A DNA stretch of 64,000 bases from positions 1 through 64,000 of the IMG/VR virus record IMGVR_UViG_3300024231_000003; one strand, 5' to 3'. Shown here piece after piece: positions 30,153 to 51,232 of this stretch. The notes under the pieces are model-generated. The model made no database searches. It was not told where the DNA came from and saw only the letters and a list, made by a program, of their open reading frames with translations. Made by a program: the position numbers and the translations under genes. This stretch comes from a virus. Position 1 is the stretch's first letter. Every line of letters begins with the position of its first letter.

Positions 30153-30590
30153 ATGAAATATATAACCACATTAATAATTGCATGCTTAATTGCAACAAGT
30201 ACATTTGCTAAAGAGCCAGTAATGGTTGAATACGATTTTCCTATTACTAGAGTTATTGATGGAGACACAGTGGCATTTGAAGCAAACTTTTTGCCAGACC
30301 CATTCAAGAAAGAATTAAGTATTCGTGTGTATGGTGTTGACACTCCTGAAAAAAGCTGGAGAGCAGAATGTGATAAAGAAGCACAATGGGGTGCAGAAGC
30401 TAGTGCATTTACAAAAAACATGATTAACGAATCACGTAACATTAAAATTGCTATTTACAAATGGGACAAATACGGTGGACGTGTGTTAGGTGATATTATA
30501 CTTGATGGATTTAGTTTACGTCAACTATTAATTGAAAATGGCTATGCACGTGAATATTACGGAGACAAGAAAGAATCATGGTGTGACTAA
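30153..30590 (+). CDS. Secreted staphylococcal-nuclease-like enzyme
   Basis: 145 residues: a signal peptide (YITTLIIACLIATSTFA) then an SNase fold with VIDGDTV (catalytic Asp), RVYGVDTPE and KYGRVLGD motifs. Such enzymes cut DNA/RNA with Ca2+. Export implies periplasmic or extracellular action, for example to salvage DNA or clear DNA from competing phage; that is inference. It follows the first tRNA array by 21 bp with a TAGGAG SD sequence, and its end overlaps the next gene. Confidence 0.85.
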   Translation: MKYITTLIIACLIATSTFAKEPVMVEYDFPITRVIDGDTVAFEANFLPDPFKKELSIRVYGVDTPEKSWRAECDKEAQWGAEASAFTKNMINESRNIKIAIYKWDKYGGRVLGDIILDGFSLRQLLIENGYAREYYGDKKESWCD

Positions 30591-31785
30591 TCCCAAAGAT
30601 GAAAAAGGATTTTGTGTAATACCATTTACACAATCGTTCATACAAGATAATCGATCCAGGCTATGTTGTGAAAGTAAACAAACAGACGTATTTTATTTAA
30701 CAGAAGATGTAAATTTTTCTGATATATGGAATAATGATTTTCATCAGAGCATTAGAAAACAAATGTTATCAGGTTCTGGCGTATTGCCAACATGTTGTGA
30801 AATTTGCACAATGGATGAAGAATCTGGCGAAGAAAGTATGCGCCAATTTCAAAACAAGTATCAAAACGCAAGCATTGCTGATTTTAATAGTGTAATAGCT
30901 CCCCCTCCGATTAGTTACGATATTAGAGCAAATAATAAATGCAATCTTGAATGTGTAATGTGTGATGGACGTCTTAGTACAGCTATCCATAAAAGACTTA
31001 ACGACTATGGTTTAACTGATGATGATGATTTTCCTGTTACATTTGGTGAAGAGTGGAAACAACAAGCATATATTATTGACCATGTTAAAGAAAATAGTAG
31101 CAATATTACTAGTATGAGATTTGCTGGAGGTGAGCCTTTTTTAATGCCAGAAGTATTAGACATGCTTGAATATTTTGCCAACACTGGAGATAGCAAAAAT
31201 ATTGATTTACAAATTCTTACTAATGGTACTACAGTGAGAACTAAATGGTTTTCCAATATACTTACCAAATACAAAAAAGTAAGATTAAAAATTAGTATAG
31301 ACGGCATTGGTGAAACTGGAGAGTATGTAAGATACCCTTCTAAGTGGAGCGTAGTTGATAAAAATATACAACGTCTACTAAAAATATCAAAAGAAAACGA
31401 CAATATAAATGTTGATCTAGTGCCAGTAATTCATTTGCTTAATGCATTAGAAATGGATAAAGTTATAGAGTATGCAGCAATCAATGAAGTTGATATGGCA
31501 TTAACACCAGTATATACAGCAAGCAGTAATTATCATATAACAGCTGATTTACTTACTAATGATCTTAGAAAGATAGCACATGATAAAATGATGAATATGC
31601 TAGACAAATATCCAGATATGTCATTTAGTGTAGGTAAAGGATTTATAACAAATTTGTTAAACATGAAGCAACGAACAGACCCTCGACCAATACAGCAACT
31701 TAATCAAGTTGTAAAATATTGGGATAGTCATAGAGAAGTTAAGTTCCTTGATCGATACCCATATTTGGATTATCTAATTAAATAG
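30583..31785 (+). CDS. Radical-SAM 'twitch' family protein (family B, copy 1)
   Basis: About 400 residues from GTG 30583, which overlaps the nuclease stop by eight bases; upstream ATG 30532 lies deep in the nuclease gene and is less likely. An N-terminal cysteine group (FCVIPF, RLCCES, CCEIC) probably binds an auxiliary cluster. The radical-SAM motif NNKCNLECVMC comes next, then RFAGGEP and a strand ending in SIDGIGE. Paralogous to proteins at 34971 (minus) and 43206: all share the SIDG-like and 'RWP/RYP' motifs. Substrate unknown. Confidence 0.85.
   Translation: MTNPKDEKGFCVIPFTQSFIQDNRSRLCCESKQTDVFYLTEDVNFSDIWNNDFHQSIRKQMLSGSGVLPTCCEICTMDEESGEESMRQFQNKYQNASIADFNSVIAPPPISYDIRANNKCNLECVMCDGRLSTAIHKRLNDYGLTDDDDFPVTFGEEWKQQAYIIDHVKENSSNITSMRFAGGEPFLMPEVLDMLEYFANTGDSKNIDLQILTNGTTVRTKWFSNILTKYKKVRLKISIDGIGETGEYVRYPSKWSVVDKNIQRLLKISKENDNINVDLVPVIHLLNALEMDKVIEYAAINEVDMALTPVYTASSNYHITADLLTNDLRKIAHDKMMNMLDKYPDMSFSVGKGFITNLLNMKQRTDPRPIQQLNQVVKYWDSHREVKFLDRYPYLDYLIK
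31779..31784 (+). promoter_or_regulatory. Late-type motif with leaderless spacing before the amidotransferase-like gene
   Basis: TAAATA ends at 31784, five bases before ATG 31790. No SD sequence is evident. Confidence 0.45.
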
Positions 31786-31789
31786 TAAT

Positions 31790-32332
31790 ATGCGTATAGG
31801 ACTCACACAACGAGTATTTGAACACAACGGCCAATCATATGATGCAACAGATCAAGACTGGTATACATACTTTGACGACCACGAGATTATACCCATACCA
31901 AATTACCCACAGAATTTTATAAGTTTAGCAGACAGTTTAGACTTGCTAGTTATTACAGGAGGCAATGCTCCTGCTGAACGAGTTAAAACAGAACTACACC
32001 TAGTTCGTGCTATGATGGATAATAATAAACCTATATTGGGAGTTTGTCATGGAGCGTTTTTCTTAACTGAACTATTTGGTGGCAAGGTTGTTGAATGTAG
32101 TGGGCATCATAATACTATACACAATGTTACAATGGATAATGCTACAGTACAAGTAAACAGTTTTCATAATTTACAGATAAAAAATGCACCAGAAATGGCT
32201 AAAGTGTTAGCAGTAGACGAAGATGGTTTTTGCGAAAGTTGGACATATGGATCTATTGGTACAGTTGTTTGGCATCCTGAGCGTGGAAATATATCAATAC
32301 CAAATGACATAACACTATTGTTAAATTTATAA
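31790..32332 (+). CDS. Class I glutamine-amidotransferase / gamma-glutamyl peptidase-like protein
   Basis: 180 residues. GVCHGAFFLTELFGG holds the nucleophile Cys; HPERG gives the catalytic His-Glu; VITGGNAP is the N-terminal loop of this fold. Stand-alone proteins of this type include gamma-glutamyl hydrolases (C26), which cleave gamma-glutamyl amide bonds. It is separated from the preceding radical-SAM gene by four bases and may process the same pathway's intermediate. No synthase partner is adjacent. Confidence 0.75.
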   Translation: MRIGLTQRVFEHNGQSYDATDQDWYTYFDDHEIIPIPNYPQNFISLADSLDLLVITGGNAPAERVKTELHLVRAMMDNNKPILGVCHGAFFLTELFGGKVVECSGHHNTIHNVTMDNATVQVNSFHNLQIKNAPEMAKVLAVDEDGFCESWTYGSIGTVVWHPERGNISIPNDITLLLNL

Positions 32333-32340
32333 TTTAAAAG

Positions 32341-32348
32341 TATAAATA
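32341..32348 (+). promoter_or_regulatory. Late promoter for the ferritin-like gene
   Basis: TATAAATA, perfect match. The +1 should be about 32354, exactly where the first hairpin of the leader begins. Confidence 0.75.
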
Positions 32349-32353
32349 TAGTT

Positions 32354-32512
32354 GTAGCACAGAGTTGTGCTATTCATCAAGTATGATTCACATGTTTATA
32401 GCAGAGTTGCTATATTATTTAAGGTGTGACTCATTTATTATAAAAATAAATGTTTTATTCAAATTGTCTACATAGTAGACAACATTACAAAGTTAAAATG
32501 GAGAATAATACA
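32354..32512 (+). promoter_or_regulatory. Structured 5' leader with serial hairpins
   Basis: Four stem-loops in 130 nt: TAGCACA-GAGT-TGTGCTA (32355-32372) at the mRNA 5' end; ATAGCA-GAGT-TGCTAT (32398-32413) with an outer arm ATGATTCACA/TGTGACTCAT (one mismatch, 32383-32434); CATTTATT/AATAAATG (32432-32452); GTCTAC-ATA-GTAGAC (32466-32480). Two hairpins share the same GAGT loop. The gene's GGAG SD sequence lies free downstream. Likely mRNA stabiliser or cis-regulator. Confidence 0.7.
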
Positions 32513-33217
32513 ATGGCTTTAACAGGTAAACAATTCGTAGAACAAGTAGCAGCAGATAACGCAGCACTATTCACAGCATCAAAAATGAACGTAAAAGCGT
32601 ATTTTGAGAGCAAAAACAACTCAACAGAAGAACTAGTTGAGCACTTCATCGGTCGTATGGTTAACGAACGTATGAACATGGTAGAGATCAGTAAGCAAGT
32701 AGCAGCAATGCCAGCAAATGCAGATCCAATGGAACTACAAAATCTATCAAAGCAAGCACACGATGAAGCAGTACACTTCCGTATGGTTAAAGAGTGCATC
32801 GAAAAAATCACAGGCGAAGAACTAGACGTAGACGCAGCAATCGCAGCAGAAGCAGCTAAGCCACAAGCTAAAGGTGCTGATCTTTTAGACAAGTACGAAG
32901 CATCAAATGATGAAGCAGCACTAGCAGTATACCAAATGGTTGCTGAAGGTCGTGCAGAAGCAGTATGGAACCAAATGGCTGACTCAATTGAAGATTCATT
33001 CATTGCTAAATCTTATGCAAAAATCGCAAAAGACGAAGGTTTCCACTCAACTATCGGCGCAATGAAACTAGAAACAATTGCAACAGATGCAGATACACAA
33101 GCACGTATCCTAGCAATCGTTGACGGAATGCGTAAAGACTTATTCAACGTATCATGTGAAAACACACTAGAAGCTGAAGGTTCAAAAGAACTAGTAGCTG
33201 AAGCATACGGTTGGTAA
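32513..33217 (+). CDS. Ferritin-like di-iron carboxylate protein
   Basis: 234 residues, all-helical. Helices carry the di-metal pattern: Glu in EELVEHFIGRMVNE, ExxH in DEAVHFRM, Glu in AEGRAEAVWNQ, and ExxH in DEGFHSTI. Start: GGAG at 32500-32503 favours ATG 32513 over the in-frame ATG 32498. Codons include more C-ending forms (ATC, TAC, TTC) than its neighbours, suggesting high expression; a long structured leader and strong terminator support that. Could be an oxygenase, an iron store or a peroxidase. Nearest functional family not certain. Confidence 0.75.
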   Translation: MALTGKQFVEQVAADNAALFTASKMNVKAYFESKNNSTEELVEHFIGRMVNERMNMVEISKQVAAMPANADPMELQNLSKQAHDEAVHFRMVKECIEKITGEELDVDAAIAAEAAKPQAKGADLLDKYEASNDEAALAVYQMVAEGRAEAVWNQMADSIEDSFIAKSYAKIAKDEGFHSTIGAMKLETIATDADTQARILAIVDGMRKDLFNVSCENTLEAEGSKELVAEAYGW

Positions 33218-33244
33218 GTTATACTTAACAATTTTTGTTTAATT

Positions 33245-33274: not shown

Positions 33275-33661
33275 TTATAAGGCAGTAAGCATTGCCATAA
33301 TATCCAATACATCGCTAGGCTTTGCATAATATTCATCTTGTATCCATTCACGCTTTGGTGTAATATACTGACAGTCAAAACTATGATCTCCATTACCATT
33401 GCTAAATGCACAATAATTCCATACTCTACATATAACTGGTAAGTGAGTCATGCCTAATCGAGGTGCTAGGTATATTCTATGATTGCCAGTGTCTAGTCTA
33501 GCTTTTCTACTCCAAACACCTACACTTAATACAATAGGGTCTTGTACACCATTTTCCATGATGTCGCTCATTAATGCTAGATCATCAGTTGGACTGAAAT
33601 CTGGATTACGATATGGAGCCAACATTTGTATTGGCATTTGTTGTATTAAGGTGCTATCCAT
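33275..33661 (-). CDS. ParB/sulfiredoxin-fold protein
   Basis: 128 residues. The first ~85 match the ParB N-terminal fold: LAPYRNPDF, then IMENGVQDPIVL, then DTGNHRIYLA (the GNHR/GxHR-type box) and LPVICRV. Members bind nucleotides or act as nucleases/modifiers. There is no helix-turn-helix, so partitioning is unlikely. It ends a minus-strand run of four genes and overlaps the upstream oxygenase by 16 bp. Biochemical role unknown. Confidence 0.65.
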   Translation of the reverse strand: MDSTLIQQMPIQMLAPYRNPDFSPTDDLALMSDIMENGVQDPIVLSVGVWSRKARLDTGNHRIYLAPRLGMTHLPVICRVWNYCAFSNGNGDHSFDCQYITPKREWIQDEYYAKPSDVLDIMAMLTAL

Positions 33662-34221
33662 CTTTGCATAAAGCTCTTTCTTACATAACCACGTTGTTGC
33701 ACTCTGTGCCAGCTCTTTTCATTATTAAAGAAGATGCTGCAGTAATTAGGTCTTAATGGGAGTTCAATAACGTCAGTATCATAATCAGACATTATGATTG
33801 TTCCTCCATCAGCATATTCTTCTTCTTGTAAAAATATTTGCAATGTAACCATAAATTCACCTTTGTCACGATGTGGAGGTTGTAATTGATTACTAGGCAA
33901 GTCTAATTTATACGACTGTTTAGCCACGTATGGATGAAAGTCTTGTTCAAATTTGTTAAACACTGCTACAGCAAATTCATTGCTTTTTAATGGATCAGTC
34001 ATTATGATATCGTTATACTGGTGGTTACTCTTATTAGCTAAATTACACCAATTGCTTTCATCATCCATGTGATCAGACCAATCAATACTATCATATATAC
34101 GTTGTTGTTCAATCAACATATCTGGTGGCAAAAATTCTGGTATTACTATATGATTCCATGGATTATTGATAATCTCAGTATCATTTATTTTTTGTAATAT
34201 GTGTGTTAGAAAATCAGTCAT
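33646..34221 (-). CDS. 2-oxoglutarate/Fe(II) oxygenase (P4H/PiuC-like)
   Basis: 191 residues. QPPHRDKGEF provides the HxD iron ligands; SWHRVQ and VRKSFMQRW near the end supply the second His and the 2-oxoglutarate-binding Arg. DYDTDVIELPLRPNYCSIF is the strand pattern preceding them. It would hydroxylate a protein, nucleic acid or small substrate. Shares an operon with an SGNH protein and a radical-SAM protein; overlaps both neighbours. SD sequence AAAGGA precedes the ATG. Confidence 0.85.
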   Translation of the reverse strand: MTDFLTHILQKINDTEIINNPWNHIVIPEFLPPDMLIEQQRIYDSIDWSDHMDDESNWCNLANKSNHQYNDIIMTDPLKSNEFAVAVFNKFEQDFHPYVAKQSYKLDLPSNQLQPPHRDKGEFMVTLQIFLQEEEYADGGTIIMSDYDTDVIELPLRPNYCSIFFNNEKSWHRVQQRGYVRKSFMQRWIAP

Positions 34222-34981
34222 TTATATCCTTTATTATAAAGTTGGTCCAGTTTTTATTTGTATCAGGTCCTGCATGTTCACCATCTCTGCCCTTATCAAC
34301 ATAATACTCTTCTTCAAGTGTAGGCCATGATTTTATAGGTATAGTTGTATCTATCCCTTGTGGTCTATCAAAACAATGTACTTCTACATTATGTAACTTC
34401 CATGTATTAATAATAGATTGCTGCATTAAATATGATTTAGTCATGTAGTTACTTTCATAGTATACATATCTTTCCCAAAATTCTATGATGTCATTACCAG
34501 ACCAGTGACCAAGTTGTTGTATCTTATCATCTTTATATATCAGATATCTTGAAGGACATGGGAACATAATTATAACTTTTTTTGGAATATAATTAGACTG
34601 TATTAGGGCATGTGTATTATGGTGTAAAGTATCAACACTTGCACCAGACACACCCATATTTATGGTAGTATTATTTGTGATCTGTTCATATATATTTGGA
34701 ATAGTATGCTTGTTATGCACGCCTTGACCAAATATATGACTGCATCCAAGAAATAGTACACATTCTTTCCAGTCAAATTCTTGTAATTCCTTTGTTCTAT
34801 ATCCGTGTGAATTAAGTCTATAATTCAGGTCCTGGGAATTAAAATATCTCCAATCAGTGCCTAGCTCTTTCTTTGTCTTAATCCAATTTGATTTGTGGTC
34901 ATCATGTAACCATTCGAGTGTAAGATTTGGAGTTTTTTTCTTATTTTCTAAATTTAAAATATCTATTTTATTAAACATCAA
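34214..34981 (-). CDS. SGNH hydrolase-like protein
   Basis: 255 residues. Block I: VLFLGCSHIFGQG with the GCSH Ser; NMGVSGASVDT supplies the block II Gly; a C-terminal DGEHAGPDTN with Asp/His matches block V. Related in layout to the 20203 protein. It may remove an acyl group from a glycan or from the product of the neighbouring enzymes. Overlaps the radical-SAM gene by 11 bp; GGAAGGA SD sequence. Confidence 0.6.
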   Translation of the reverse strand: MMFNKIDILNLENKKKTPNLTLEWLHDDHKSNWIKTKKELGTDWRYFNSQDLNYRLNSHGYRTKELQEFDWKECVLFLGCSHIFGQGVHNKHTIPNIYEQITNNTTINMGVSGASVDTLHHNTHALIQSNYIPKKVIIMFPCPSRYLIYKDDKIQQLGHWSGNDIIEFWERYVYYESNYMTKSYLMQQSIINTWKLHNVEVHCFDRPQGIDTTIPIKSWPTLEEEYYVDKGRDGEHAGPDTNKNWTNFIIKDIND

Positions 34982-36077
34982 AATGATCCTTCCAATTTAA
35001 TCCTCTGATATTATTCAGTGTTTCAAAATAGGACAACATCTTTTCTCTTAACTTCCCCCGTTCATCTTGGCTACTATTGAATTTGACTATTTTTGTCAAT
35101 TTTTTATTATTTAAATCTAGTATTGTTTGTATTATTTCAGGACTGGCTAAAAATGGTTGTAAGTGCTTTGGTTCATAAACACTCATGCCTGCCCAATGTA
35201 TATCCCGCTCATCACACCATTCTATTAATTTAGGTAGTGACTGCAAACTAGCAGCCTGGACACTAGTTTCAACATTAACTTTAATATTATCGTATGATAT
35301 CATTTTATCTACATTGCGTTCTAATTTGTCCCATTTGATAGGCCATCTTATAAAATCATTAGCTTTTCCATATCCATCTATACTAACATTTATTCGTACA
35401 TCTTCAAATTTAGATAGTACATCTTGTAGTTTTTTTCCAAAGCTGCCCCCGTTAGATGTGATTTGTATAATTGAATGGTTTTTATTTTCTTGTTGTGCTT
35501 CTAGTACAATTTCTAAAAAGTCACTTAACAATCCTCTAACAGTAGGTTCACCACCAGCAAATCTTATTTTACGTGCTTTAGATGCTTCTACTGCAATAGT
35601 TCTAAATTTAGCAGGATCGTCAAACCAATTAACTTCTGGAGAATGATGTTGTGGTCTAAATATTTTAAGTTGTGGATTTTTATTGTGTTCTTCTTCCATC
35701 AAACTACTATTGTAACTACCACACATAATACATCCAGCATTGCATATATTACCAAATTTAATCTCTGTGTCGAATAAACTAAACTCGCCTTCATTAGTAT
35801 ATCTCTGATCGCCGTTATATATCATTCCGTCAATATTGGCTTTTTCATCTAGGACACATTCATTGCATCCTTGGCCAAACCTATTGTTTTTCATATCATT
35901 CATTAGTTTTTTATAAAAATCACTATTTAGATAATCTTGTATTGTATTTTCAGATACTAGAACTTGATCAGGCTGCTCTTGCCAAGCACAACATGGACGA
36001 TAAACGCCTGTACTACTGATACTAATATGATTTACTGGCCATTTACACTTCATAAACATATTTATACTTGTTGACAT
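34971..36077 (-). CDS. Radical-SAM 'twitch' family protein (family B, copy 2)
   Basis: 368 residues. N-terminal cysteines (KCKWPV, YRPCCAWQ, GCNECV), then the radical-SAM motif GNICNAGCIMC, RFAGGEP, QITSNGG and SIDGYGKA with FIRWP. Paralogous to the proteins at 30583 and 43206 (shared RFAGGEP, SIDG, IRWP). First gene of a four-gene minus operon with an SGNH protein, a 2OG oxygenase and a ParB-fold protein. Its start lies against the plus-strand promoter of the structured RNA at 36071. Confidence 0.85.
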   Translation of the reverse strand: MSTSINMFMKCKWPVNHISISSTGVYRPCCAWQEQPDQVLVSENTIQDYLNSDFYKKLMNDMKNNRFGQGCNECVLDEKANIDGMIYNGDQRYTNEGEFSLFDTEIKFGNICNAGCIMCGSYNSSLMEEEHNKNPQLKIFRPQHHSPEVNWFDDPAKFRTIAVEASKARKIRFAGGEPTVRGLLSDFLEIVLEAQQENKNHSIIQITSNGGSFGKKLQDVLSKFEDVRINVSIDGYGKANDFIRWPIKWDKLERNVDKMISYDNIKVNVETSVQAASLQSLPKLIEWCDERDIHWAGMSVYEPKHLQPFLASPEIIQTILDLNNKKLTKIVKFNSSQDERGKLREKMLSYFETLNNIRGLNWKDHFDV

Positions 36078-36441: not shown

Positions 36442-36447
36442 AAGTTT

Positions 36448-36522: not shown

Positions 36523-36527
36523 AGTTT

Positions 36528-36706: not shown

Positions 36707-37792
36707 ATGATAAAATTAGATACAGTACACGTTGAAATAACTAACAGATGTAATGCAATGTGTCCAGGATGCACTAGGCAAGATCCTGATACTGGAAAGT
36801 TACTCGATTTTTTTCATACAACTAATGAAGTTGATTGGTCATTATCTGACTTTAAAAATATACTTCCTCCTCATATTGTTAAAGATACAAACATATTTTT
36901 TGGAGTAACAGTTGATGAGCCATTAATGAATCCAAACTTTTTAGATATTGCAAAATATGTAATTGCGTCTGGAGGTAATATTGAACTTGATACTAATGCA
37001 GGTGCTGGAACAGAAAAAACATGGACTGAATTTGGTAGATTATCACGTGACAATCCTGGAAGAATAAGAGTTGGATTTTCAGTAGATGGATATGAAGATA
37101 CAAATCATATATATCGTGTTAATGTCAAGTGGAATACAGTTGTAAGAAATATGAAAGCATTTGCACAGAATTGTAAAGATGCAACTTGGGTATATCTAGC
37201 ATTTGATCATAATGAGCATGATATACCAAAGGCAGAAAAACTAGCAACAAAAATGGGTATCAAATTTAAAGTACGTGCAAATACTCGAAATATTAAATCT
37301 TGGGTATCAAATACTACTATTAAAAAAGATAAAAAGATAGTTAAAGAAACAAAAATAGTCAAAGTAGACTCTGATAGTAAATTTAAACATAGCGACTTTG
37401 AAAAGATAAAAAAATTAACAAGTCGTAAATCTGACGAATATACTAAAAGTGAACTTGACACCATATCTTGTTTATTAATAGATCAACAAGAAGTTATGAT
37501 TGATTGGTCAAAGAGAATGTGGCCATGTTGTTGGTGGGGAGATGCATATCTTTCAAAAAACAAAAGATGGATGAAAAACATTATTTCTCAATATGGAGAT
37601 GATTGGAATCGGGTAGATTTAACATCAATAGATAAAATACTAGATCATGAATATTATGCTAGTATATTAGGTGGTGAAGCTAGATATGATAATACTAGTA
37701 AATTCTACTGTGGTGATAGTTGCTTTAAGCACTGTGGTGATAAAGGCAAAAGAAATTACGAATACTTTGATAAAGATGGCAAATCAGTCTAG
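36707..37792 (+). CDS. Radical-SAM protein with SPASM-like C-terminus (family A, second copy)
   Basis: 361 residues. C15, C19 and C22 (NRCNAMCPGC) form the cluster motif; C-terminal WPCCWWG, FYCGDSCFKHCGDKG supplies more cysteines. Shares NHIYRVNV.WNTV.RNM and a Lys-rich insertion with the protein at 3134. The duplication across the genome suggests two substrates or sites. Followed by a leader and the B12-type radical-SAM gene. Confidence 0.85.
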   Translation: MIKLDTVHVEITNRCNAMCPGCTRQDPDTGKLLDFFHTTNEVDWSLSDFKNILPPHIVKDTNIFFGVTVDEPLMNPNFLDIAKYVIASGGNIELDTNAGAGTEKTWTEFGRLSRDNPGRIRVGFSVDGYEDTNHIYRVNVKWNTVVRNMKAFAQNCKDATWVYLAFDHNEHDIPKAEKLATKMGIKFKVRANTRNIKSWVSNTTIKKDKKIVKETKIVKVDSDSKFKHSDFEKIKKLTSRKSDEYTKSELDTISCLLIDQQEVMIDWSKRMWPCCWWGDAYLSKNKRWMKNIISQYGDDWNRVDLTSIDKILDHEYYASILGGEARYDNTSKFYCGDSCFKHCGDKGKRNYEYFDKDGKSV

Positions 37793-41585: not shown

Positions 41586-41614
41586 TTGACAATTAAAGTG
41601 AAGTAGAGTATAAT
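41586..41614 (+). promoter_or_regulatory. Perfect sigma70-type promoter for the methyltransferase operon
   Basis: TTGACA (41586-41591), 17 bp, TATAAT (41609-41614). Predicted leader of about 23 nt with an AAAGG SD sequence. Suggests early expression of the downstream methyltransferase, oxygenase and radical-SAM genes. Confidence 0.85.
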
Positions 41615-42558: not shown

Positions 42559-43213
42559 ATGGGAAATGACTGTAGATCAAAGTAACTACGATTTTAACCC
42601 GTTTAGAGAAAGTGATCACGGAGCTGGTTTTCGAACAATAGGCAATATAGAGCCTACATGGAAACAAGAAATACCTATTGCAAATTCAAACCAGTATGAT
42701 TTTTATTGGCCATCGCCAGTATCGCCTGACGGCGATAGTTTTAATTACGACTACGAAGAACTGTTATGCAAAGACTGGGGTATTCCTTTAGACTATGTCG
42801 TATACAGACAATGGACAACTACAGAAGAAACTCCTATACTACATAGCATTGCAGAACAAATTGGTCTTGCTGATGCACAAACTAATGTACAGACACAACA
42901 CACAGGCATGATGCTACATTTACACATTGATAGTTTAACTGGCCTACGTAAAGAACGCACAGACCAAAGTAGTAGTAGATCCACAGACATTGAATGGGGA
43001 AGAGTCTTTGTAATGTTAGACGATTGGGCACCAGGACATATTATACAGTTTGGTAATACATATGTACCTCCTTGGAGAGCAGGAGATATTATATGGTTTG
43101 ATTGGGCAAATATTCCACATAGTACAGCAAATACTGGACCATGGCCTCGTAACATACTAAAAATTACAGGCAAAGTTACAGACAAATACACAGAGTTAAT
43201 TAATAATGGATGA
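42551..43213 (+). CDS. 2OG/Fe(II) oxygenase-like protein
   Basis: 220 residues. MMLHLHIDSLTG contains HxD; RVFVMLDDWAPGHIIQFG and WFDWANIPHSTANTGPWPRN supply the following strand, the second His and the Arg of 2OG oxygenases. Overlaps both neighbours (8 bp each side), so tightly coupled to the methyltransferase and radical-SAM genes. Confidence 0.75.
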   Translation: MNRWEMTVDQSNYDFNPFRESDHGAGFRTIGNIEPTWKQEIPIANSNQYDFYWPSPVSPDGDSFNYDYEELLCKDWGIPLDYVVYRQWTTTEETPILHSIAEQIGLADAQTNVQTQHTGMMLHLHIDSLTGLRKERTDQSSSRSTDIEWGRVFVMLDDWAPGHIIQFGNTYVPPWRAGDIIWFDWANIPHSTANTGPWPRNILKITGKVTDKYTELINNG

Positions 43214-44468
43214 TTTTGGAGAAAACTATTGTGTATATCCGTTTGTTAGTATGACGATTAGTCCAACTGGTCGTTGGAAGATTTGTTGTGTAGATGAGGA
43301 CGGTGACGATATTCCTACAACAAAAATTACTGATTTTGAAGGAGGAAAATATTACAAATGTTCTGACTATAGCCTAATGGATTTTTGGAAAAGCGACTAT
43401 ATGGATCACATACGTGAAAAAATGTTAAAAGACCAACCAGTACATGAGTGTAGAAGTTGCAAATATAATGAAAAAAAAGGTACCAAAAGTTATAGACAGC
43501 GAGCTAATGAAGAATGGGGATATATAAGTGAAACTATGGAATCTCCAACATACATAGATCTCAAACTAGGAAATACATGTAATCTAAATTGTGTATTTTG
43601 TGATCCTAACAGTAGTAGTAAAGTATTACAAGAATGGAAAAAGATAGGATGGATTACTGCAGAAACTGCACCGTTTGGAGAAGGCATCATGGGTCCTATT
43701 GAAGAACTAGGAACAGAAAAGGTAGACTACAATTGGGTAAATCATAATAACTTTTGGGATAATGTAGATGAAGTTTCTCCATACTTAACTAAATTAAAGT
43801 TTACAGGTGGGGAACCAATGCTTAACAAAAAAATGTTTAAGTTGTTGCAAAGTATAATTGACCAAGATAGGGCCAAAGATATCAGCGTACAAATTACAAC
43901 AAATGGTACTGTAGTTAGCGAAAAGATATGTAATATGCTTAACCAGTTTAAAATGGTACAATTAAATTTTAGTTGTGATGGATTAAAAGGAACAAACGAA
44001 TATATTAGATGGCCACTTGAACATGATAAATGGTTGGAAAATATAGATATGTTTGAAAAATTTACTAACGAGGAAACAGTAACATTAAGTATGCAGCACA
44101 GTTATGGTGCGTTAACAATGCTAAGTCTTGCTGAATACTTTAGATGGGTATTTACAAAAAAGAGATTTGGTTGGCACACATTTAAGGTTTGGAAACCAGA
44201 ATTTATGCAAATGGAAGTTTTAGAACCAGCTACTCTTAATGAAGCCAAAACTGATTTGCAGAATTTAGTAGATGAACTAACTCCTCAGATCAAACTCAGT
44301 AGAGACGAGCATCTTGTACAAGATATTACAGGTATAATTCAAGCCATCGATAATGCAGTCAATTTAACACATTTAAGACCAAAACTATTAGAATACACAA
44401 ATGCTTTGGACAAGAGCAGAGGTATAAATATCTATGATTATATACCAAGACTTAAAAATCATTTGTAA
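43206..44468 (+). CDS. Radical-SAM 'twitch' family protein (family B, copy 3)
   Basis: 420 residues. N-terminal cysteines (NYCVYPF, KICCVDE, CRSCKYN), radical-SAM motif GNTCNLNCVFC, then FTGGEPM, QITTNGT, NFSCDGLKGTN and IRWP. The SIDG Ser-Ile is changed to Ser-Cys, but the paralogy to copies 1 and 2 is clear. Together with a methyltransferase and oxygenase it forms a compact operon under the 41586 promoter. Confidence 0.85.
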   Translation: MDDFGENYCVYPFVSMTISPTGRWKICCVDEDGDDIPTTKITDFEGGKYYKCSDYSLMDFWKSDYMDHIREKMLKDQPVHECRSCKYNEKKGTKSYRQRANEEWGYISETMESPTYIDLKLGNTCNLNCVFCDPNSSSKVLQEWKKIGWITAETAPFGEGIMGPIEELGTEKVDYNWVNHNNFWDNVDEVSPYLTKLKFTGGEPMLNKKMFKLLQSIIDQDRAKDISVQITTNGTVVSEKICNMLNQFKMVQLNFSCDGLKGTNEYIRWPLEHDKWLENIDMFEKFTNEETVTLSMQHSYGALTMLSLAEYFRWVFTKKRFGWHTFKVWKPEFMQMEVLEPATLNEAKTDLQNLVDELTPQIKLSRDEHLVQDITGIIQAIDNAVNLTHLRPKLLEYTNALDKSRGINIYDYIPRLKNHL

Positions 44469-44492
44469 AGGATAAATAAAGTTAATAACAGC

Positions 44493-44617: not shown

Positions 44618-45601
44618 ATGAAATTATTAAACCTAAAAGCCGCCGCAATGGCGACTATCGTAGCCTTTACGGCAAGTGCATCTGCAGCAGCAGAGTGCGA
44701 AGTAACTATCGCTGAACCTAATTGGAGTTCAGGTCAATTTATGGCATATCTAGATAAGTTTGTTGTAGAAACAGCATTTGGCTGTGAAGCAGAACTAATG
44801 CCAGCAGCTTCTATTGCAGTAGCAACAAGTATGACTGAAAAAGGCACACCGCATATTGCTGGTGAATTTATTTCAGTAAGTGTTGGCGATGTTGTGGACC
44901 AAGCAATTGCTGAAGGAAAAATCCTTATTGCAAATGACGACCCATACCAAGGCGGCGCACAAGAAGGATTTTATGTATCTAAAAGTGTATTAGATGCAAA
45001 CCCAGAAATTAAAACAGTAGAAGATCTATTAGAACGTCCAGAACTAGTTGGCGGTAAAGTATTTTCTTGTCCAGGCGGTTGGGGTTGTAATGCTACAATG
45101 CGTAACAATCTATTAGCACTTGATGTTGAATCAAAAGGCTTTGAAATTGTTGTTCCAGGATCAGGTGCAGCATTTGACGGTTCAATTGCAAACGCAGCAC
45201 AACGTGGTACTGGTTGGTTTGGTTTTTACTGGGCACCAGCAGGCATGTTAAGTAAGTTTGGAATGGTTCCATTACCAACTCGTGCAGGTTTTGCAGGTAC
45301 AGATTATTGGACAAATTGTGCTACTGATTTAGAGTGTACTAATCCACAAGTATCAGATTTTCCAAAACCAACAATCCGTTCACTAACAGTACCAGAATTT
45401 GCAAATGCTAACCCAGCAATTGTAGCGTACTTAGCAAAACGTGACTTCTCAATTGAACAAATTAACTCATACTTAATTCAAATGGAAGCATCACAAGAAA
45501 CAGCAGAAGAAGCAGTTGTATCATTCTTTAAAAATAACGAAGATGTATGGACAACATGGTTTACTGCAGAAACTGTTGCAAAAATTAAAGCAGCACTATA
45601 A
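44618..45601 (+). CDS. proX: Periplasmic glycine betaine/proline-binding protein (ProX/OpuAC)
   Basis: 327 residues with an N-terminal signal peptide (LNLKAAAMATIVAFTASASA) ending near AECEV. Body features match OpuAC solute-binding proteins: TIAEPNWSSGQ, GDVVDQAIAEGK and WFGFYWAP with aromatic residues that could cage a quaternary amine. The function would be import of betaine, proline betaine or related osmolytes. A transporter gene in a phage is a striking auxiliary gene. AAGGAA SD sequence; permease gene follows by three bases. Confidence 0.8.
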   Translation: MKLLNLKAAAMATIVAFTASASAAAECEVTIAEPNWSSGQFMAYLDKFVVETAFGCEAELMPAASIAVATSMTEKGTPHIAGEFISVSVGDVVDQAIAEGKILIANDDPYQGGAQEGFYVSKSVLDANPEIKTVEDLLERPELVGGKVFSCPGGWGCNATMRNNLLALDVESKGFEIVVPGSGAAFDGSIANAAQRGTGWFGFYWAPAGMLSKFGMVPLPTRAGFAGTDYWTNCATDLECTNPQVSDFPKPTIRSLTVPEFANANPAIVAYLAKRDFSIEQINSYLIQMEASQETAEEAVVSFFKNNEDVWTTWFTAETVAKIKAAL

Positions 45602-45604
45602 CTA

Positions 45605-46495
45605 ATGGATAGCAAGTTTTTAACTGAGTTTCCTGGACTAGATACAAGTACACTAAAGTACATCAGAAGAACATTGGATAATGCGTTTTTTGAATTTTCT
45701 AGAAACTGGGGAGAGCAGATTGAAAACTTGCTATATCCTTTAGAATATATTCTAGAAGTATCAGAGGACTTCCTCGTAGATACTCCTTGGTTAGTAATAC
45801 TATTGTTATTAACCACTTTTTGTTATCTTACTACATCCAATAAAAGATTTACTTTTGTTTTCTCGAGCATTTTGTTTTTAATTGGATATTTTGGAATGTG
45901 GGAAGATGCAATGATTACACTTAGTATTGTTATTATTGGTGTTTCATTATGCGTTATCAGTGGAATACCAATAGGCATAGCAATGTCTTCAAGTAATAGA
46001 GTTAGATCTATAATGTTGCCTATATTAGATTTTGCACAAGCAGTACCAACATTTGTCTACTTAATTCCAATTATTATGTTATTAGGTATTGGTGATCTTC
46101 CTGGACTCATTGCTATATGTGTATATGCTGTTCCGCCTATAATTAGATTTACTGACTTGGGAATACGTGAAGTAGATACAGGATCAATCGAAGCTGCAGA
46201 ATCTCTTGGTATGAATAAATGGCAAGTTTTACGAAAAATAAAAATACCACTAGCATACACTAGTATATTTGCTGGGCTTAATCAAACAATTATGATGGCA
46301 TTGGGTATGGTAGTTATTGCAAGTATGATTGGATTACAAGGACTTGGTAGTAACGTACTAACTGCAATTAATCAACAAAGACTAACAATAGGTTTACTTA
46401 ATGGTATGGCTATTGTTAGTTTAGCAATAATATTAGATCGAATGACACAACAATGGGCTAAGAAATTACAAGCCTGGAAATATGTTGACAAGTAG
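45605..46495 (+). CDS. proW: ABC permease for glycine betaine/proline (ProW-like)
   Basis: 296 residues: an N-terminal cytoplasmic stretch then about six membrane spans. The 'EAAESLGMNKWQVLRKIKIPLAY' EAA loop that docks the ATPase is intact, as are the SIVIIGVSLCVISGIPIGI and GLGSNVLTAI segments typical of ProW. No ATPase gene follows: the next gene is on the minus strand, directly abutting. The phage pair must use the host ATPase (ProV/OpuAA) or an ATPase elsewhere. Confidence 0.85.
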   Translation: MDSKFLTEFPGLDTSTLKYIRRTLDNAFFEFSRNWGEQIENLLYPLEYILEVSEDFLVDTPWLVILLLLTTFCYLTTSNKRFTFVFSSILFLIGYFGMWEDAMITLSIVIIGVSLCVISGIPIGIAMSSSNRVRSIMLPILDFAQAVPTFVYLIPIIMLLGIGDLPGLIAICVYAVPPIIRFTDLGIREVDTGSIEAAESLGMNKWQVLRKIKIPLAYTSIFAGLNQTIMMALGMVVIASMIGLQGLGSNVLTAINQQRLTIGLLNGMAIVSLAIILDRMTQQWAKKLQAWKYVDK

Positions 46496-47821
46496 TTATT
46501 CGTATTCTATACAATCCTGTAACATACTGTTAACTTCTCTATACTTGTCGAATAACTCTTGTTCAGTTGCACCAGTTAAATCAAAGTTTACGTTGAATGC
46601 CTTGTTTTGTAAATTTTGCCATTTTGGAATAAAAGCTCCAACCTCTAATCCAACATTTTGCGCATTAAAGTATTTACTTACTTTGTCTAGGTTATGCAAC
46701 GCTTTAATCTTTCCAGGCTTTAATAAAGCACAGCCCCAGAGTAAATTATTTTTAATGACAAGAGGTTCTCCTTTAACAAAATTGGTAATAATGTTATTGT
46801 CATTAACACTGTCTAGGATATTAACAAATTGTCCAGGTCTTGGATTTAAGTCAATAGCAATAATTTTACCATCATCGCAGGTATGAAAGTCTGGGCCAGC
46901 AAAGAACATTTCTTTAACTTTTAAATGATCCACTAATGTTTGTAAGTATTCAATAGAAGCTTCTTCTATTTCTTTACCAACTTCACTAGCATTGGCAATC
47001 CATACACATCTATCTCTAACAATGTCACTAGATTCACTAATTGAGTGACTTGAAATAGGATCATCCTGTGGATCCATTACATCGCCATATTTAATTTTAC
47101 TATTCTTTACATAGAACTCAATATGTACTTTTCCGTTCTTAACGTATCCTATAGGGGAAACAGTAGGCATTGAACTCCAATGGTACTCTTGAAACATAAT
47201 TCTACAAGCCTTGTTGTTGAACTTCTTAAGGTATATTCCTTGTCCATTAAGTTCAAAAAACTTATTGTGTGATTCCTTGTCTTTTAGGTGTTTTAGGAAA
47301 TGATGCCTATTGTTCCAACGTCTGTATTCCACTGAAGGAGCACTATTGTCATCACCAGGAAAGAATACATTACTTCCTGTACCAATATCTGGTTTACTAA
47401 ACACTTGTTTATTTTTAAAGATACTTAGTTGACTATGGGTTCTAGGTGTTATACTTTTTGGTGTATACTTTTCTAAACCAATTGTTCTACAAAAGTCATC
47501 CATTAACTGTTTATTACTTAATATCTCAGCCGCAAAAGGTGTTAAGTTGTTAATGCCATAATAGCTCTCCAGTTGAGAAGCAACAGGCAATAAGTTTTCA
47601 CTTACACACAGTACTTTATCACAGTTGGGAATATCTTTTACAATTTCTGCTATATTGAATAACTTTGAAATTACAAGAGTATTAGCCATTTTTACATATT
47701 TTTTAGATTCATTAGGTTTATTATCAGTGATAAGGATAACATTATCATCTTTATATGCAGACAATAAACCTTCTGATTTATTTAGGCTTCTTTCGTGTGA
47801 TAGAATTACAATATTCATCAT
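46496..47821 (-). CDS. ATP-grasp enzyme
   Basis: About 441 residues (ATG 47821 or 47818). ATP-grasp features: KPDIGTGSNVFFPG (Lys and glycine-rich loop), EYHWSSMPTVSPIGY and, near the end, AIDLNPRPGQF, the Glu/Asn metal-binding segment ('iEiNpRp'). The N-terminal domain is a Rossmann-type preATP-grasp fold (MNIVILSHERS, LITDNK). Members ligate carboxylates to amines. Convergent with proW, and its start overlaps the upstream hydrolase stop (ATGATGA). Confidence 0.8.
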   Translation of the reverse strand: MMNIVILSHERSLNKSEGLLSAYKDDNVILITDNKPNESKKYVKMANTLVISKLFNIAEIVKDIPNCDKVLCVSENLLPVASQLESYYGINNLTPFAAEILSNKQLMDDFCRTIGLEKYTPKSITPRTHSQLSIFKNKQVFSKPDIGTGSNVFFPGDDNSAPSVEYRRWNNRHHFLKHLKDKESHNKFFELNGQGIYLKKFNNKACRIMFQEYHWSSMPTVSPIGYVKNGKVHIEFYVKNSKIKYGDVMDPQDDPISSHSISESSDIVRDRCVWIANASEVGKEIEEASIEYLQTLVDHLKVKEMFFAGPDFHTCDDGKIIAIDLNPRPGQFVNILDSVNDNNIITNFVKGEPLVIKNNLLWGCALLKPGKIKALHNLDKVSKYFNAQNVGLEVGAFIPKWQNLQNKAFNVNFDLTGATEQELFDKYREVNSMLQDCIEYE

Positions 47822-48579
47822 AAGTATGCTATTTCCTTTAATATCTGGTTTATACACATTATACTATACTTCTCATTACTTTGCAAGACAATTGTTTGGT
47901 TATTCTTTTCAGAGAAATGTTCAGCAAAGCTATGTGTATTAGGCTTTAGTGTATCAAATTCGCTGTTTGACAAAATCTTAGATGTTGTGTTATACTTAGT
48001 TATAAGTATTTCTCTATTCTTATTTGGAATCATAAATCCGTGGTGTGTATTTGGTACTGTAGTACTTATGGGAGGCATCAAACAATGAGCCTCAAAATCA
48101 TTATAGTTGTCACACCAATTATCATTTTTAGCTAAGAATACAGTAGTATTTACATAGTCATTAGACATTAACCTTGGAGTAAGTGCAATAATACCAGGAT
48201 AAAAGCAATAATTCTTAACAAAATGATTACTATGATATAGCCCAAGATAACCACCTAAGCTACTACCTATATGTACAATCTTATCGTATTGTGGCATCGT
48301 AAAATCAAACATATCACTAAATGTACATTCATGCAAATCAATATAAGGTCCATGATCAATCCATCCTAGTGAATCAATACCAAATTTAGAAAAGTAATCA
48401 AGCAATCCTATATTATAACCTTTGGACAGAAACGTTTCAGCTAAACGTAGTTCATTACCGCCAATACCTCCACTGCCATGACTAATTAAAATAAGCACAT
48501 CAGGGCTCTTACAATTATGAGGAATAAATATACTTATGTTATCACGTATTACAGATTTTGAAATTAAAAGATTAGACAT
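47818..48579 (-). CDS. Alpha/beta hydrolase (dienelactone-hydrolase-like)
   Basis: 253 residues. SHGSGGIGGN (oxyanion region), HIGSSLGGYLGL with the nucleophile Ser, KNDNWCD (acid) and NTHHGFM (His) form a catalytic triad. Operon with the ATP-grasp gene. Start codon CAT (minus) shares bases with the plus-strand ATG at 48578, so the divergent gene begins at the same site. Confidence 0.75.
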   Translation of the reverse strand: MSNLLISKSVIRDNISIFIPHNCKSPDVLILISHGSGGIGGNELRLAETFLSKGYNIGLLDYFSKFGIDSLGWIDHGPYIDLHECTFSDMFDFTMPQYDKIVHIGSSLGGYLGLYHSNHFVKNYCFYPGIIALTPRLMSNDYVNTTVFLAKNDNWCDNYNDFEAHCLMPPISTTVPNTHHGFMIPNKNREILITKYNTTSKILSNSEFDTLKPNTHSFAEHFSEKNNQTIVLQSNEKYSIMCINQILKEIAYL

Positions 48580-49078
48580 GGATAATCTCCCTGATGAACT
48601 TTATACATTTGCTGACACTTGTGCTGAACAAGGTATGCAAAATAATATAAGTGTTGCTGCAATGAAGATTGGCAAATGGGGAAATGAGGCATGGTGGTGT
48701 ACCTGGGCTGACGGCAAAATTATTAGCATTAGCGGATGTCACCAAATGGACCAATACGAAAAAGGTTGTTGGCGTCTCATGGTAAGAACAGCCACACTTT
48801 TGGAATACAGAGGCAGAGCACCTGGTAGCATACGTACTATTCGAACTGATTTCAATTGGGGTCATGTTTTGCCTTATCAAGTTAATTATGCAGTATTGCA
48901 AGGAGCAACAAAGGTAGTTTTTACTACTAATAGTGATTCTGACGGAGATAAAAATAGTTTGCGTACAAATAGAGTAGTGCGTAAAGTTCTAGAACCACAA
49001 GGGCTAGTAAAGCTTGATGCACAGGATGTTGAAATATTTTATACCCGTCAAAATGTGTGGGAAATTATAATTTCCTAA
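48578..49078 (+). CDS. Phage GNAT-like protein
   Basis: 166 residues from ATG 48578. A small alpha/beta fold resembling GNAT N-acyltransferases: WCTWADGKIISISGCHQM, then WGHVLPYQVNYAVLQGATKVVFTTNSD with the late substrate/CoA-face strands. The CoA-binding Q/RxxGxA loop is not clean. An in-frame ATG at 48536 could extend it by 14 residues. Convergent with the SDR-like gene at 49075. Confidence 0.5.
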   Translation: MDNLPDELYTFADTCAEQGMQNNISVAAMKIGKWGNEAWWCTWADGKIISISGCHQMDQYEKGCWRLMVRTATLLEYRGRAPGSIRTIRTDFNWGHVLPYQVNYAVLQGATKVVFTTNSDSDGDKNSLRTNRVVRKVLEPQGLVKLDAQDVEIFYTRQNVWEIIIS

Positions 49079-49641
49079 TCAATAATTTGTATTGGGTCAA
49101 TACTAATATTATTAATATTTATTTCTTTGGGTTGTTCTAATATCCAGTCAATATAACTGGCAGCTTGCTCCATAGGTAATACTGTTCTTCCAGGATTCTT
49201 ATGTGCTTTATTTTGCAGCGTACCAAAACTAATATGCGTTACTTTGGGTGCATTTTGCCAATTACCCATGATAGCAAGGCCATTGGACATTTCGTTTAGA
49301 GCTAATTTTTCATAGTGGTACAAGTTACCCTTACCACGCCTAACAGTATCAGTAGTAGAACCAACATTGATAATTCTTTTGTCAAAGCCACCTTCAGCTA
49401 ACCATTTATGCCATATAGTATGCAATAGCATAGATTGTTTAAAATAAAAGTTTGCATACATATTAATAAAAACGTCACAATCTTGTGATAACCGAGCTAC
49501 TTGTTTAATAGCACCATCATCATTAAAGTCGTATCCATTATCTCGACTAGCTGTTACTATTTCATGACCTCTAGCTTCCAACATAGGAACAAGATACCCA
49601 GTTAAGTCTTTGTCTCTATTACCTGTTATTAAAATTTTCAT
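49075..49641 (-). CDS. Short-chain dehydrogenase/reductase family protein
   Basis: 188 residues from ATG 49641 (AAGGAG SD sequence); a 5'-extended frame to 49677 is less likely. KILITGNRDKDLTGYLV is a TGxxxxxG nucleotide-binding loop variant, and NVGSTTDT with YHYEKLALNE provides the Ser and the YxxxK active site. A late promoter (TATAAATA at 49666-49659) precedes it. Substrate unknown; NAD(P)-linked reduction or epimerisation of a sugar or related compound is typical. Confidence 0.7.
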   Translation of the reverse strand: MKILITGNRDKDLTGYLVPMLEARGHEIVTASRDNGYDFNDDGAIKQVARLSQDCDVFINMYANFYFKQSMLLHTIWHKWLAEGGFDKRIINVGSTTDTVRRGKGNLYHYEKLALNEMSNGLAIMGNWQNAPKVTHISFGTLQNKAHKNPGRTVLPMEQAASYIDWILEQPKEININNISIDPIQIID

Positions 49642-49658
49642 ATTATACTCCTTGTATA

Positions 49659-49666
49659 TATTTATA
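49659..49666 (-). promoter_or_regulatory. Late promoter for the SDR-like gene
   Basis: TATAAATA on the minus strand; +1 at about 49653. Confidence 0.65.
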
Positions 49667-49700
49667 ATAAATAACATAGTACTTAATTAGAAAGAAAATC

Positions 49701-50468
49701 ATGCCAATTATTAAAGAAACAGTTTTAGAAGTAAAGCATTACACAGATAGATTATTCCATATTACAACTACCAGAGATCCTAGTATACGTTTTAGAGATG
49801 GTGAGTTTTTAATGATAGGAATTGAAGTAGATGGAAAGCCATTACTTAGAGCATATAGTGTAGCAAGTCCAAGCCATCAAGAGACTCTAGAGTTTTTTAG
49901 TATTAAAGTACCAGACGGTCCACTTACCAGTCGTTTACAACATATACAGGTAGGCGATGAATTTTTAGTGAATTCCAAAGCAGTTGGCACACTAGTAGCT
50001 GATAACTTAAAACCAGGACGTAACTTATATCTTATGGGCACAGGTACTGGAGTTGCACCATTTTTATCAGTAGCACGTGGATTCGAAGCATATGAAAATT
50101 ATGATCGTGTTATATTGATGTGGGGTACACGAGAAGTTGCAGAACTCCCGTTCATTGAATACTTTGATAATCTCAATGAAGATGAAACTTATGGTGAATT
50201 AACAGAAGGTAAGTTCTTGTTCTACCCAACATGTACTCGTGAGGAATTTAAAAATCAAGGACGAGTAACAACTGCAATGTATGAAGGTAAAGTACAACAA
50301 GTATTAGGTCTAGAGCCATTTGATGCAGAACATGATCGTGTAATGATATGTGGATCTCAGGAAATGAATATGGAATTACGCAAGTATTTTATAGATGATA
50401 TGGGTTGTACTGAAGGGAACGCAAATCATCGAGGAGAATTTGTGTTAGAGAAGGCATTTGTAGGATGA
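49701..50468 (+). CDS. fpr: Ferredoxin/flavodoxin-NADP+ reductase
   Basis: 255 residues. RAYSVAS (FAD binding), GTGTGVAPFLSVARG (NADP/FAD loop), FYPTCTRE and a C-terminal EFVLEKAFVG ending in the bacterial FPR manner. It moves electrons between NADPH and flavodoxin/ferredoxin. Radical-SAM clusters are usually reduced by flavodoxin fed from this enzyme, so it is the most telling companion of the radical-SAM set. Overlaps the next gene by four bases. Confidence 0.9.
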   Translation: MPIIKETVLEVKHYTDRLFHITTTRDPSIRFRDGEFLMIGIEVDGKPLLRAYSVASPSHQETLEFFSIKVPDGPLTSRLQHIQVGDEFLVNSKAVGTLVADNLKPGRNLYLMGTGTGVAPFLSVARGFEAYENYDRVILMWGTREVAELPFIEYFDNLNEDETYGELTEGKFLFYPTCTREEFKNQGRVTTAMYEGKVQQVLGLEPFDAEHDRVMICGSQEMNMELRKYFIDDMGCTEGNANHRGEFVLEKAFVG

Positions 50469-51232
50469 ACTATACTAAAGGTGTAAAGCAAGAAAAACAA
50501 AATATCATAGATAGGTTCTCTCCAGCAAAAATATTAGAAAATGTACTAACAGATGAACAAGTACATGAATTGCTTTTATTTCAATTCCAAAATGCTGACC
50601 GTATTAAGTGGACAGCAACTAGCAGTAATATACAGCCATCAATAAACATTGTAAAAATGTTAGAGAAATTTGATTGGCTAAAGGATATAATAGCTAAAGA
50701 GATAGGTGACTTTTGGGAAGGACAACATAGTGGTAATTACTTTATTACTACTCAGTTGCATGATGCTCATGCAGATCTATTAACTGAAAAAGAAACAGAC
50801 GAAGATTGGGCGCAAGGCTTTATACCATACAAAAGCGCAGTAATTCCAATAATTATTACTGCTAGAGCAAAAGCATATACTGCATTTTTTAATCAAAGAC
50901 ATATTGGACATAGTATAACACTGGATAGAGAGTTTGTCACATCGCAAGACGATAGTATGTACGAAATATCCAGAGACTATCCAGATTTTTATATGGGAGA
51001 TGGCAGTGTTAGTACATTTGCTGATATTGAAAAGCACCCTAAATATATATTCCCTCATATACACCCTGAAAATAACAGAGGACTATCAATTGAAAATGTA
51101 TTTGAATTTAAACCAGGAAACATAATGATATTTGATGCGTGTCAAATCCATGCAAGTTGCGTAACTACTGACCGTCCAAATTTCCATTGGTTAAAAAGCG
51201 GAATTAATATACAGTTTTATAAAAAGTTATAA
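50465..51232 (+). CDS. 2OG/Fe(II) oxygenase-like protein
   Basis: 255 residues. LHDAHADLL carries candidate HxD ligands; IFDACQIHASC supplies the distal His; the end (FHWLKSGINIQF) resembles the final strand of phytanoyl/2OG folds. Overlap with the FNR gene suggests a shared transcript. Weaker motif set than the other oxygenase-like proteins. Confidence 0.55.
   Translation: MNYTKGVKQEKQNIIDRFSPAKILENVLTDEQVHELLLFQFQNADRIKWTATSSNIQPSINIVKMLEKFDWLKDIIAKEIGDFWEGQHSGNYFITTQLHDAHADLLTEKETDEDWAQGFIPYKSAVIPIIITARAKAYTAFFNQRHIGHSITLDREFVTSQDDSMYEISRDYPDFYMGDGSVSTFADIEKHPKYIFPHIHPENNRGLSIENVFEFKPGNIMIFDACQIHASCVTTDRPNFHWLKSGINIQFYKKL

Follow-up and report, generated by a model that had tools for sequence, protein, structure and literature searches.

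The window analysed here comprises bases 1–64,000 of an 87,708-bp IMG/VR virus record (G000), itself a fragment, and derives from a marine T4-like virus. NrdA of the record shares 52.6% identity with its counterpart in Pelagibacter phage HTVC008M; other replication genes diverge further, and the bulk of the genome is unmatched in that phage. Between 30.5 and 51.2 kb the window holds an array of radical S-adenosylmethionine (SAM) (rSAM) enzymes, 2-oxoglutarate (2OG) oxygenase-like proteins and companion genes (Table 1; genes are named by their first position), and the reference phage collection holds no close relative of this region. A preliminary description of the DNA had treated these 21 kb as a single cassette; an undescribed multi-enzyme system is present, but the unit is narrower, spanning 37918–49078 plus possibly the SPASM-like rSAM gene 36707.

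Five rSAM genes lie in the region, as had been described, in addition to one at 3134. PF04055 scores above its cut-off at 30532, 34971, 37918, 43206 and 3134, while 36707 falls slightly short (27.5 against 29.5) and passes together with its frame neighbours in a Pfam scan. The three twitch copies (30532, 34971 and 43206) all exceed the cut-off of the N_Twi_rSAM model (NF033640), 37918 combines B12-binding and rSAM domains, and 36707 and 3134 are SPASM-like sisters; of the nine rSAM domains in the whole record, three belong to a second cluster at 80–87.6 kb, beyond the window. Six cysteines of the N_Twi family are invariant over 32 sequences (C9, C82, C85, C125, C129 and C132) and C27 nearly so; the N_Twi proteins here have the N-terminal twitch-type cysteines before CxxxCxxC, and their N-terminal part matches the C-terminal part of BtrN at 1.5e-5. 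The expected HxD...H motif is seen in all five 2OG-oxygenase-like genes (33646, 40287, 40937, 42551 and 50465), of which Pfam detects only 33646, below cut-off. Methyltransferase 41644, amidotransferase 31790 and ferredoxin-NADP reductase (FNR) 49701 have profile support; the ATP-grasp, alpha/beta-hydrolase, short-chain dehydrogenase/reductase (SDR) and SGNH genes are present as described, their families being motif-based, and several labels are motifs read by eye. Three genes had been overlooked, encoding an OpuAC-type binding protein of the choline/betaine kind (44618), an ATP-binding cassette (ABC) permease (45605) and a redoxin (39758). Late promoters, previously proposed alongside early ones, are not enriched: TATAAATA was found 10 times against 13.5 expected, which is not above chance. 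A near-perfect sigma70 consensus (11/12) lies at 44493, ahead of 44618.

For nine core genes the reciprocal best hits (RBHs; E = 5e-28 to 4e-146) lie packed in 10.4 kb of a contig from a Bdellovibrionales metagenome-assembled genome (L254:3882–14254). The same gene families occur in G139 (L269) and in the related genome G140, where they stand amid housekeeping-like genes on a contig of 710 kb (L267/L268). Chromosomes of Bdellovibrionota (G062, G139 and G140) share with the window a contiguous set of the same nine families; no T4 portal was found in G062. Unlike that of the window, the bacterial cluster runs on into HMGL-like (1.9e-31), aconitase large and small subunit (Aconitase, 2.2e-76; Aconitase_C, 1.4e-16), aminotransferase (Aminotran_1_2, 1e-27) and PrpD (1.2e-18) genes, the best named match of the HMGL-like gene being homocitrate synthase (8.5e-48). 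Conversely, neither a counterpart of 42551 nor OpuAC, permease or other importer genes were seen in the bacterial stretches read. Relatives of the ATP-grasp protein occur in 3 of 369 Bdellovibrionota genomes; an alphaproteobacterial origin of this gene was considered and set aside, with matches in 0 of 385 genomes, a set without a positive control.

The core also recurs in other phages. Genes 37918–41578 form an ordered module in L197, L207 and L209 at 59–76% identity, and an alignment search with the ATP-grasp protein recovered 21 viral loci (20 near full-length and one short; 7 non-redundant at 95% identity); 2OG genes a, b and c and the methyltransferase are each found in 16. Where the flank is long enough these four recur together with an f138-type 2OG gene, and T4 portals were found in 3 of 16 records searched. 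One locus, L270, is arranged like the window from 37918 up to and including the FNR gene, bar 43206, with cluster genes at 56–90% identity and an extra B12-rSAM and 2OG gene; it shares a contig with L144, and that phage therefore has both clusters, this one and the second one discussed below. N_Twi and amidinotransferase genes are immediate neighbours of the core in G829 and G831. Such recurrence in phages and bacteria alike answers the proposed co-occurrence check, and the core families are not independently scattered. Importer genes at the ATP-grasp viral loci are of several types, TctC-like in 18, TctA in 16 (1.1e-57), a BtuB-like TonB receptor in 12 and OpuAC with permease in 2, and the backbone genes of the bacterial cluster (homocitrate-synthase-type and others) were matched in none of these loci, whose records are partial.

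At the level of single genes, core genes have unbroken reading frames and seem to evolve under purifying selection, with dN/dS of 0.06–0.26 for the 12 genes computable (0.14 for 37918 against its L270 copy), rough values given that dS is near saturation. The best NCBIfam match of 37918 is to the KedN5 B12-rSAM methyltransferases (NF033712), at 190 bits and below the cut-off of 700. The peroxidatic cysteine of PxxxTxxC is missing from phage and bacterial cluster copies of 39758, where alignment places IVEY (window) or WSDY (bacteria) at the TPTC motif, but is kept in the HTVC008M, G026 and G021 copies; this loss in the bacterial and the phage cluster copies alike, set against its retention in ordinary phage peroxiredoxins, suggests that the 39758 family has been repurposed as part of the cluster and is not an antioxidant. 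Gene 40287 is conserved in phages. An AlphaFold2 (AF2) model of 42551 (pLDDT 77) matches PDB 2OG dioxygenases among other cupin folds in Foldseek (E about 1e-5, TM about 0.5). Of the twitch proteins proposed for structure prediction, 43206 was modelled (AF2 pLDDT 87); its Foldseek neighbours, SkfB, CteB, anSME, viperin and BlsE, have low TM-scores of about 0.3–0.4. No Pfam, PDB or NCBIfam entry supports 46496, and no ABC_tran match above cut-off that would mark an importer ATPase occurs anywhere in the 87.7-kb record. The overlapping divergent pair 47818/48536 is also found in L254, L268 and L269. SPASM relatives of 36707 occur in the L267, L287 and L288 clusters at 32–34% identity, with no clean orthologue.

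Table 1. Features of the 30.5–51.2 kb region, with positions in the window, strand and supporting evidence (RBH E-values refer to L254; N_Twi scores are given against the model cut-off).
Feature	Position	Strand	Evidence
N_Twi rSAM enzyme (flanking)	30532..31785	+	266 vs 170 bits
Class I glutamine amidotransferase, paired with 32450	31790..32332	+	PF00117 3.4e-11
Weak DUF455 similarity, possibly ferritin-like, paired with 31790	32450..33217	+	PF04305 0.005, below cut-off
2OG-oxygenase-like (flanking module)	33646..34221	-	PF13640 4.5e-4, below cut-off
SGNH-like (flanking module; by motif)	34214..34981	-	motif only
N_Twi rSAM enzyme (flanking module)	34971..36077	-	225 vs 170 bits
SPASM-like rSAM, possible cluster member	36707..37792	+	PF04055 4e-6, below cut-off
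B12-binding rSAM enzyme (core)	37918..39792	+	PF02310 5.4e-11, PF04055 2e-10; RBH 4e-146
Peroxiredoxin-fold protein without peroxidatic Cys (core)	39758..40345	+	Redoxin 1e-13; RBH 4e-49
2OG-oxygenase-like a (core)	40287..40937	+	HQD...H...R by eye, no Pfam match; RBH 1e-47
2OG-oxygenase-like b (core)	40937..41578	+	HYD...H by eye, no Pfam match; RBH 2e-78
Perfect sigma70-type promoter consensus upstream of 41644	41586..41614	+	12/12, spacer 17; consensus match only
SAM-dependent methyltransferase (core)	41644..42558	+	PF13489 1.7e-7; RBH 8e-103; 90.5% identity to L270 copy
2OG-oxygenase-like c (phage core)	42551..43213	+	invariant HxD...H; in 16/20 ATP-grasp viral loci
N_Twi rSAM enzyme (core in bacteria and window)	43206..44468	+	304 vs 170 bits; RBH 5e-111
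OpuAC-type periplasmic binding protein (importer part)	44618..45601	+	PF04069 2.5e-40; PDB 7yle 3.4e-50; 78.8% identity in L270
ABC permease, choline/glycine-betaine class (importer part)	45605..46495	+	PF00528 3.3e-27; ChoW 2.1e-69, ProW 7.7e-66, both below cut-off
ATP-grasp-like ligase (core; motif-assigned)	46496..47857	-	KPDIGTGSN and AIDLNPRPG motifs; RBH 3e-72; 20 viral loci
Alpha/beta-hydrolase-like (core; motif-assigned)	47818..48579	-	GSSLGG motif, no family match; RBH 5e-28
180-aa protein (core), GNAT-like by eye	48536..49078	+	no family match; RBH 1e-47
SDR-like (phage clusters; by motif)	49075..49677	-	no family match; 73% in L270
FNR, phage backbone	49701..50468	+	6.9e-36 to Fpr model, below cut-off
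2OG-oxygenase-like, backbone partner of FNR	50465..51232	+	HxD...H

The preliminary description had expected a modified peptide, glycan or nucleotide as the output of these genes; instead, the importer and the backbone-building enzymes of the bacteria point to a small molecule. Since the set recurs in phages and, in fuller form, in Bdellovibrio-related chromosomes, we read the core as a travelling small-molecule pathway: 37918–49078 is probably, though far from certainly, a mobile biosynthetic cluster that tailors an amino-acid- or tricarboxylate-like compound and is carried by marine T4-like phages together with an importer. In such a scheme the bacteria would build the carbon backbone with their homocitrate-synthase-, aconitase- and aminotransferase-like enzymes, while phages lacking these genes would import the backbone or a close analogue, an idea suggested because phages have importers without backbone genes and bacteria the reverse, as far as partial records show which genes are present. 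The B12-rSAM enzymes would then C-methylate and the 2OG oxygenases hydroxylate the compound, the N_Twi enzyme may perform a further radical step, the methyltransferase would cap the product, and the ATP-grasp-like and hydrolase-like proteins could join or trim it, with a nutrient, chelator or bioactive compound as the possible gain for the infected cell. More tentative, and in our judgement rather unlikely as it stands, is the extension that ocean T4-like phages encode one half, the tailoring steps, of a so far undescribed small-molecule pathway and import a precursor made by Bdellovibrionota, so that infection builds a compound neither virus nor host makes alone. Several observations weigh against the small-molecule cluster: a number of viral loci end before the full core, 43206 was not seen adjoining the core in L270, and no profile matches the ATP-grasp, hydrolase, SDR or 180-aa proteins. 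The TctC label rests on adjacency to TctA, and the TctC, OpuAC and BtuB types differ, so their ligands may differ too. The BtuB-like receptor, whose top match among families and in the PDB alike is BtuB (TIGR01779, 91.5 bits, below the cut-off of 599.7), could bring in B12 for the B12 enzymes rather than substrate, and, the record being a fragment, the phage could have backbone genes outside it.

The second rSAM cluster (77.8–87.6 kb of the record, L014) contains two 2OG-like and two N_Twi-like rSAM genes, with a nucleosidase-family protein (PNP_UDP_1, 8e-15) between the latter, an amidinotransferase (HsvA, 3.6e-27) and a SPASM rSAM. Near 68 kb lie a SufE-domain protein (6e-27) and an open reading frame (ORF) that reads, by eye, as a SAM synthetase; SufE, SAM synthetase and nucleosidase could supply Fe-S clusters and SAM and clear the 5'-deoxyadenosine by-product. 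IMG/VR contains at least 316 relatives of the protein at 80365, in two types of gene neighbourhood. Among 53 non-redundant loci, type A (13) features nucleosidase (12), sulfotransferase-like (12), amidinotransferase (10) and 2OG (10) genes, and type B (38) glycosyltransferase (GT)-like (29) and PP-loop (20) genes. As a control we used 400 kb of N_Twi-negative relatives, covering a different gene region from that of the test loci; the nucleosidase, amidinotransferase, PP-loop and pyridoxal phosphate (PLP) families were not found there. Pattern scans of viral contigs with the single proteins 43206 and 34971 recovered no relatives, the patterns being too narrow, and alignment of distant rSAM proteins yielded no stretch usable for scanning. 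The number of N_Twi-model matches per near-complete phage is 9–25, and in one 330-kb virus record a single stretch (G039 44–90 kb, L128–L130) has 14 of them, with PP-loop and aminotransferase-like genes. Type-B loci (L175–L227) also contain a highly conserved 74-aa ORF (e.g. L197:6668–6892), which often shares 8 bases with the gene that follows it; that gene is commonly a SPASM rSAM. Among the reference phages this ORF and 34971 are unmatched, and 37918 has one partial match.

These wider neighbourhoods bring glycans into consideration, as the system might act on polysaccharide of the host surface or on a glycan of the virion (tail fibre), within a host-recognition region. Relatives' N_Twi and SPASM genes sit by GT-like, fibre-like, amidinotransferase, sulfotransferase-like and PLP-like genes (several GT labels being by eye), an rSAM gene of Vibrio phage K566 adjoins GT8, the rSAM, amidinotransferase and NDP-sugar transferase genes of CP220 lie downstream of a base-plate gene, and rSAM cassettes of pelagimyophages are placed within the host-recognition cluster (PMC7029224). 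For the genes studied here we nevertheless regard this as improbable: no glycosyltransferase appears in the Pfam matches of 30.5–51.2 kb or among the genes recognised in the chromosomal core, and an importer and homocitrate/aconitase genes would be unexpected for a glycan decorator. It is less probable still that the product is a ribosomally synthesised and post-translationally modified peptide (RiPP) or a virion protein, modified by SPASM/twitch rSAM, B12-rSAM, 2OG and methyltransferase enzymes. The enzyme mix resembles proteusin tailoring, the peptide and protein modifiers SkfB, CteB and anSME lead the neighbours of 43206, and the 74-aa ORF overlaps the SPASM gene in many type-B loci. The TM-scores are low, however, and viperin (acting on nucleotides) and BlsE (on a nucleoside) match as well, no member of the 74-aa family was found in G000, and the homocitrate, aconitase and aminotransferase genes fit a small molecule. 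As previously described, there is no obvious precursor peptide: the gaps of the window cluster lack a conserved short ORF beside the modification genes, the only matches of their short ORFs in relatives falling at tRNA genes, and a RiPP precursor there was rejected.

A reading of the whole region as a hypervariable island, its auxiliary genes unrelated to one another, would agree with the variability of 30532–36077 among relatives, the backbone nature of the FNR–2OG pair and the finding that genes of the 40287 and 40937 types are equally common or commoner in N_Twi-negative relatives, 40937 relatives being frequent in the control phages. The reciprocal conservation of nine genes in bacteria and the repeated phage co-linearity argue against it for 37918–49078; the island reading is contradicted for the core and true for part of the flanks, and we give it very little credence overall. 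A comparably slight chance attaches to nucleic-acid hypermodification or a viperin-like nucleotide or antiviral role. A QueE-like gene of the record (L013:2852–3748) is related to that of KVP40 (2e-38), QueC-like PP-loop genes lie near rSAM genes in relatives, viperin profiles match the rSAM core weakly and the PADLOC candidate PDC-M51A matches 37918 at 2.5e-30. Against this, 30532 reaches 38.8 bits with the viperin model (NF038283), below the cut-off of 180, all rSAM cores resemble one another, and no base-hydroxymethylase or DNA-glycosylating gene was recognised, no model search for these having been made.

The region had been considered unlike a usual T4 accessory region, which holds only in part, rSAM-rich modules having been reported in T4-like phages (PMC2853527, PMC5332604, PMC7029224). 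Within the open-access literature covered, such modules date back to 2010, without function. The T4-like Campylobacter phages CP220 and CPt10 have 11–12 rSAM genes, with a cluster of five rSAM genes and an amidinotransferase treated as an exchangeable unit (PMC2853527). In CP220, as in G000, the amidinotransferase gene is directly followed by an rSAM gene, but the CP220/CPt10 module corresponds to the second cluster of the record (85550–87648) rather than to the core of the window; neither an importer nor a B12-rSAM/2OG core is noted for it, and its function is unproven (PMC2853527). A T4-like TARA genome that has Fe-S assembly genes alongside 12 rSAM genes, for which Fe-S metabolism was proposed, is alike in its marine origin, many rSAM genes and viral Fe-S support, here the SufE-domain protein, but that report lists genes, and the passage covered describes no conserved cluster (PMC5332604). 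Pelagimyophages likewise carry variable rSAM cassettes in marine T4-like genomes, their content and function not being described in the passages covered (PMC7029224). Tying one such module to bacterial chromosomes that also encode recognisable backbone-building enzymes, and to the differing importers of phages, turns a gene list into testable chemistry of substrate, precursor source and product. If the small-molecule reading is true, T4-like phages take part in specialised metabolism and do not only boost host housekeeping pathways.

On either side of the core lie genes of other affiliation. The stretch 30532–36077 is a variable flank; its twitch-rSAM modules form a second class, which earlier work had already reported from T4-like phages. 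Its 31790/32450 pair recurs in G026 and L145, with 32450 relatives also in L162; assignment of 31790 to the methyl phosphoramidate pathway (NF045546) was rejected at 68 bits against a cut-off of 250, the remaining pathway genes not having been searched by model. Relatives of 33646 number 18 in N_Twi loci and 0 in the control, those of 34214 number 51 across 32 N_Twi loci and 6 in the control, and the relatives of 34971 include G010_57781 (E = 3e-156) and one in L295 (E = 2e-154). Downstream of the core, 49075 has relatives in 13 N_Twi loci and also in 2 control pieces. The FNR–2OG pair (49701–51232) is, from sequence comparison, phage backbone common to relatives: FNR relatives occur in G010, G026 and G004, 50465 orthologues adjoin FNR in G010 and G004 with a weak match in G026, and FNR was not found in N_Twi loci or bacterial clusters. 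Given this backbone occurrence, FNR was rejected as a cluster-specific reductase; the preliminary description had suggested that it could reduce the Fe-S clusters. Three tRNA genes at 36351–36602 lie between the rSAM modules, separate from the nine at 29.2–30.1 kb.

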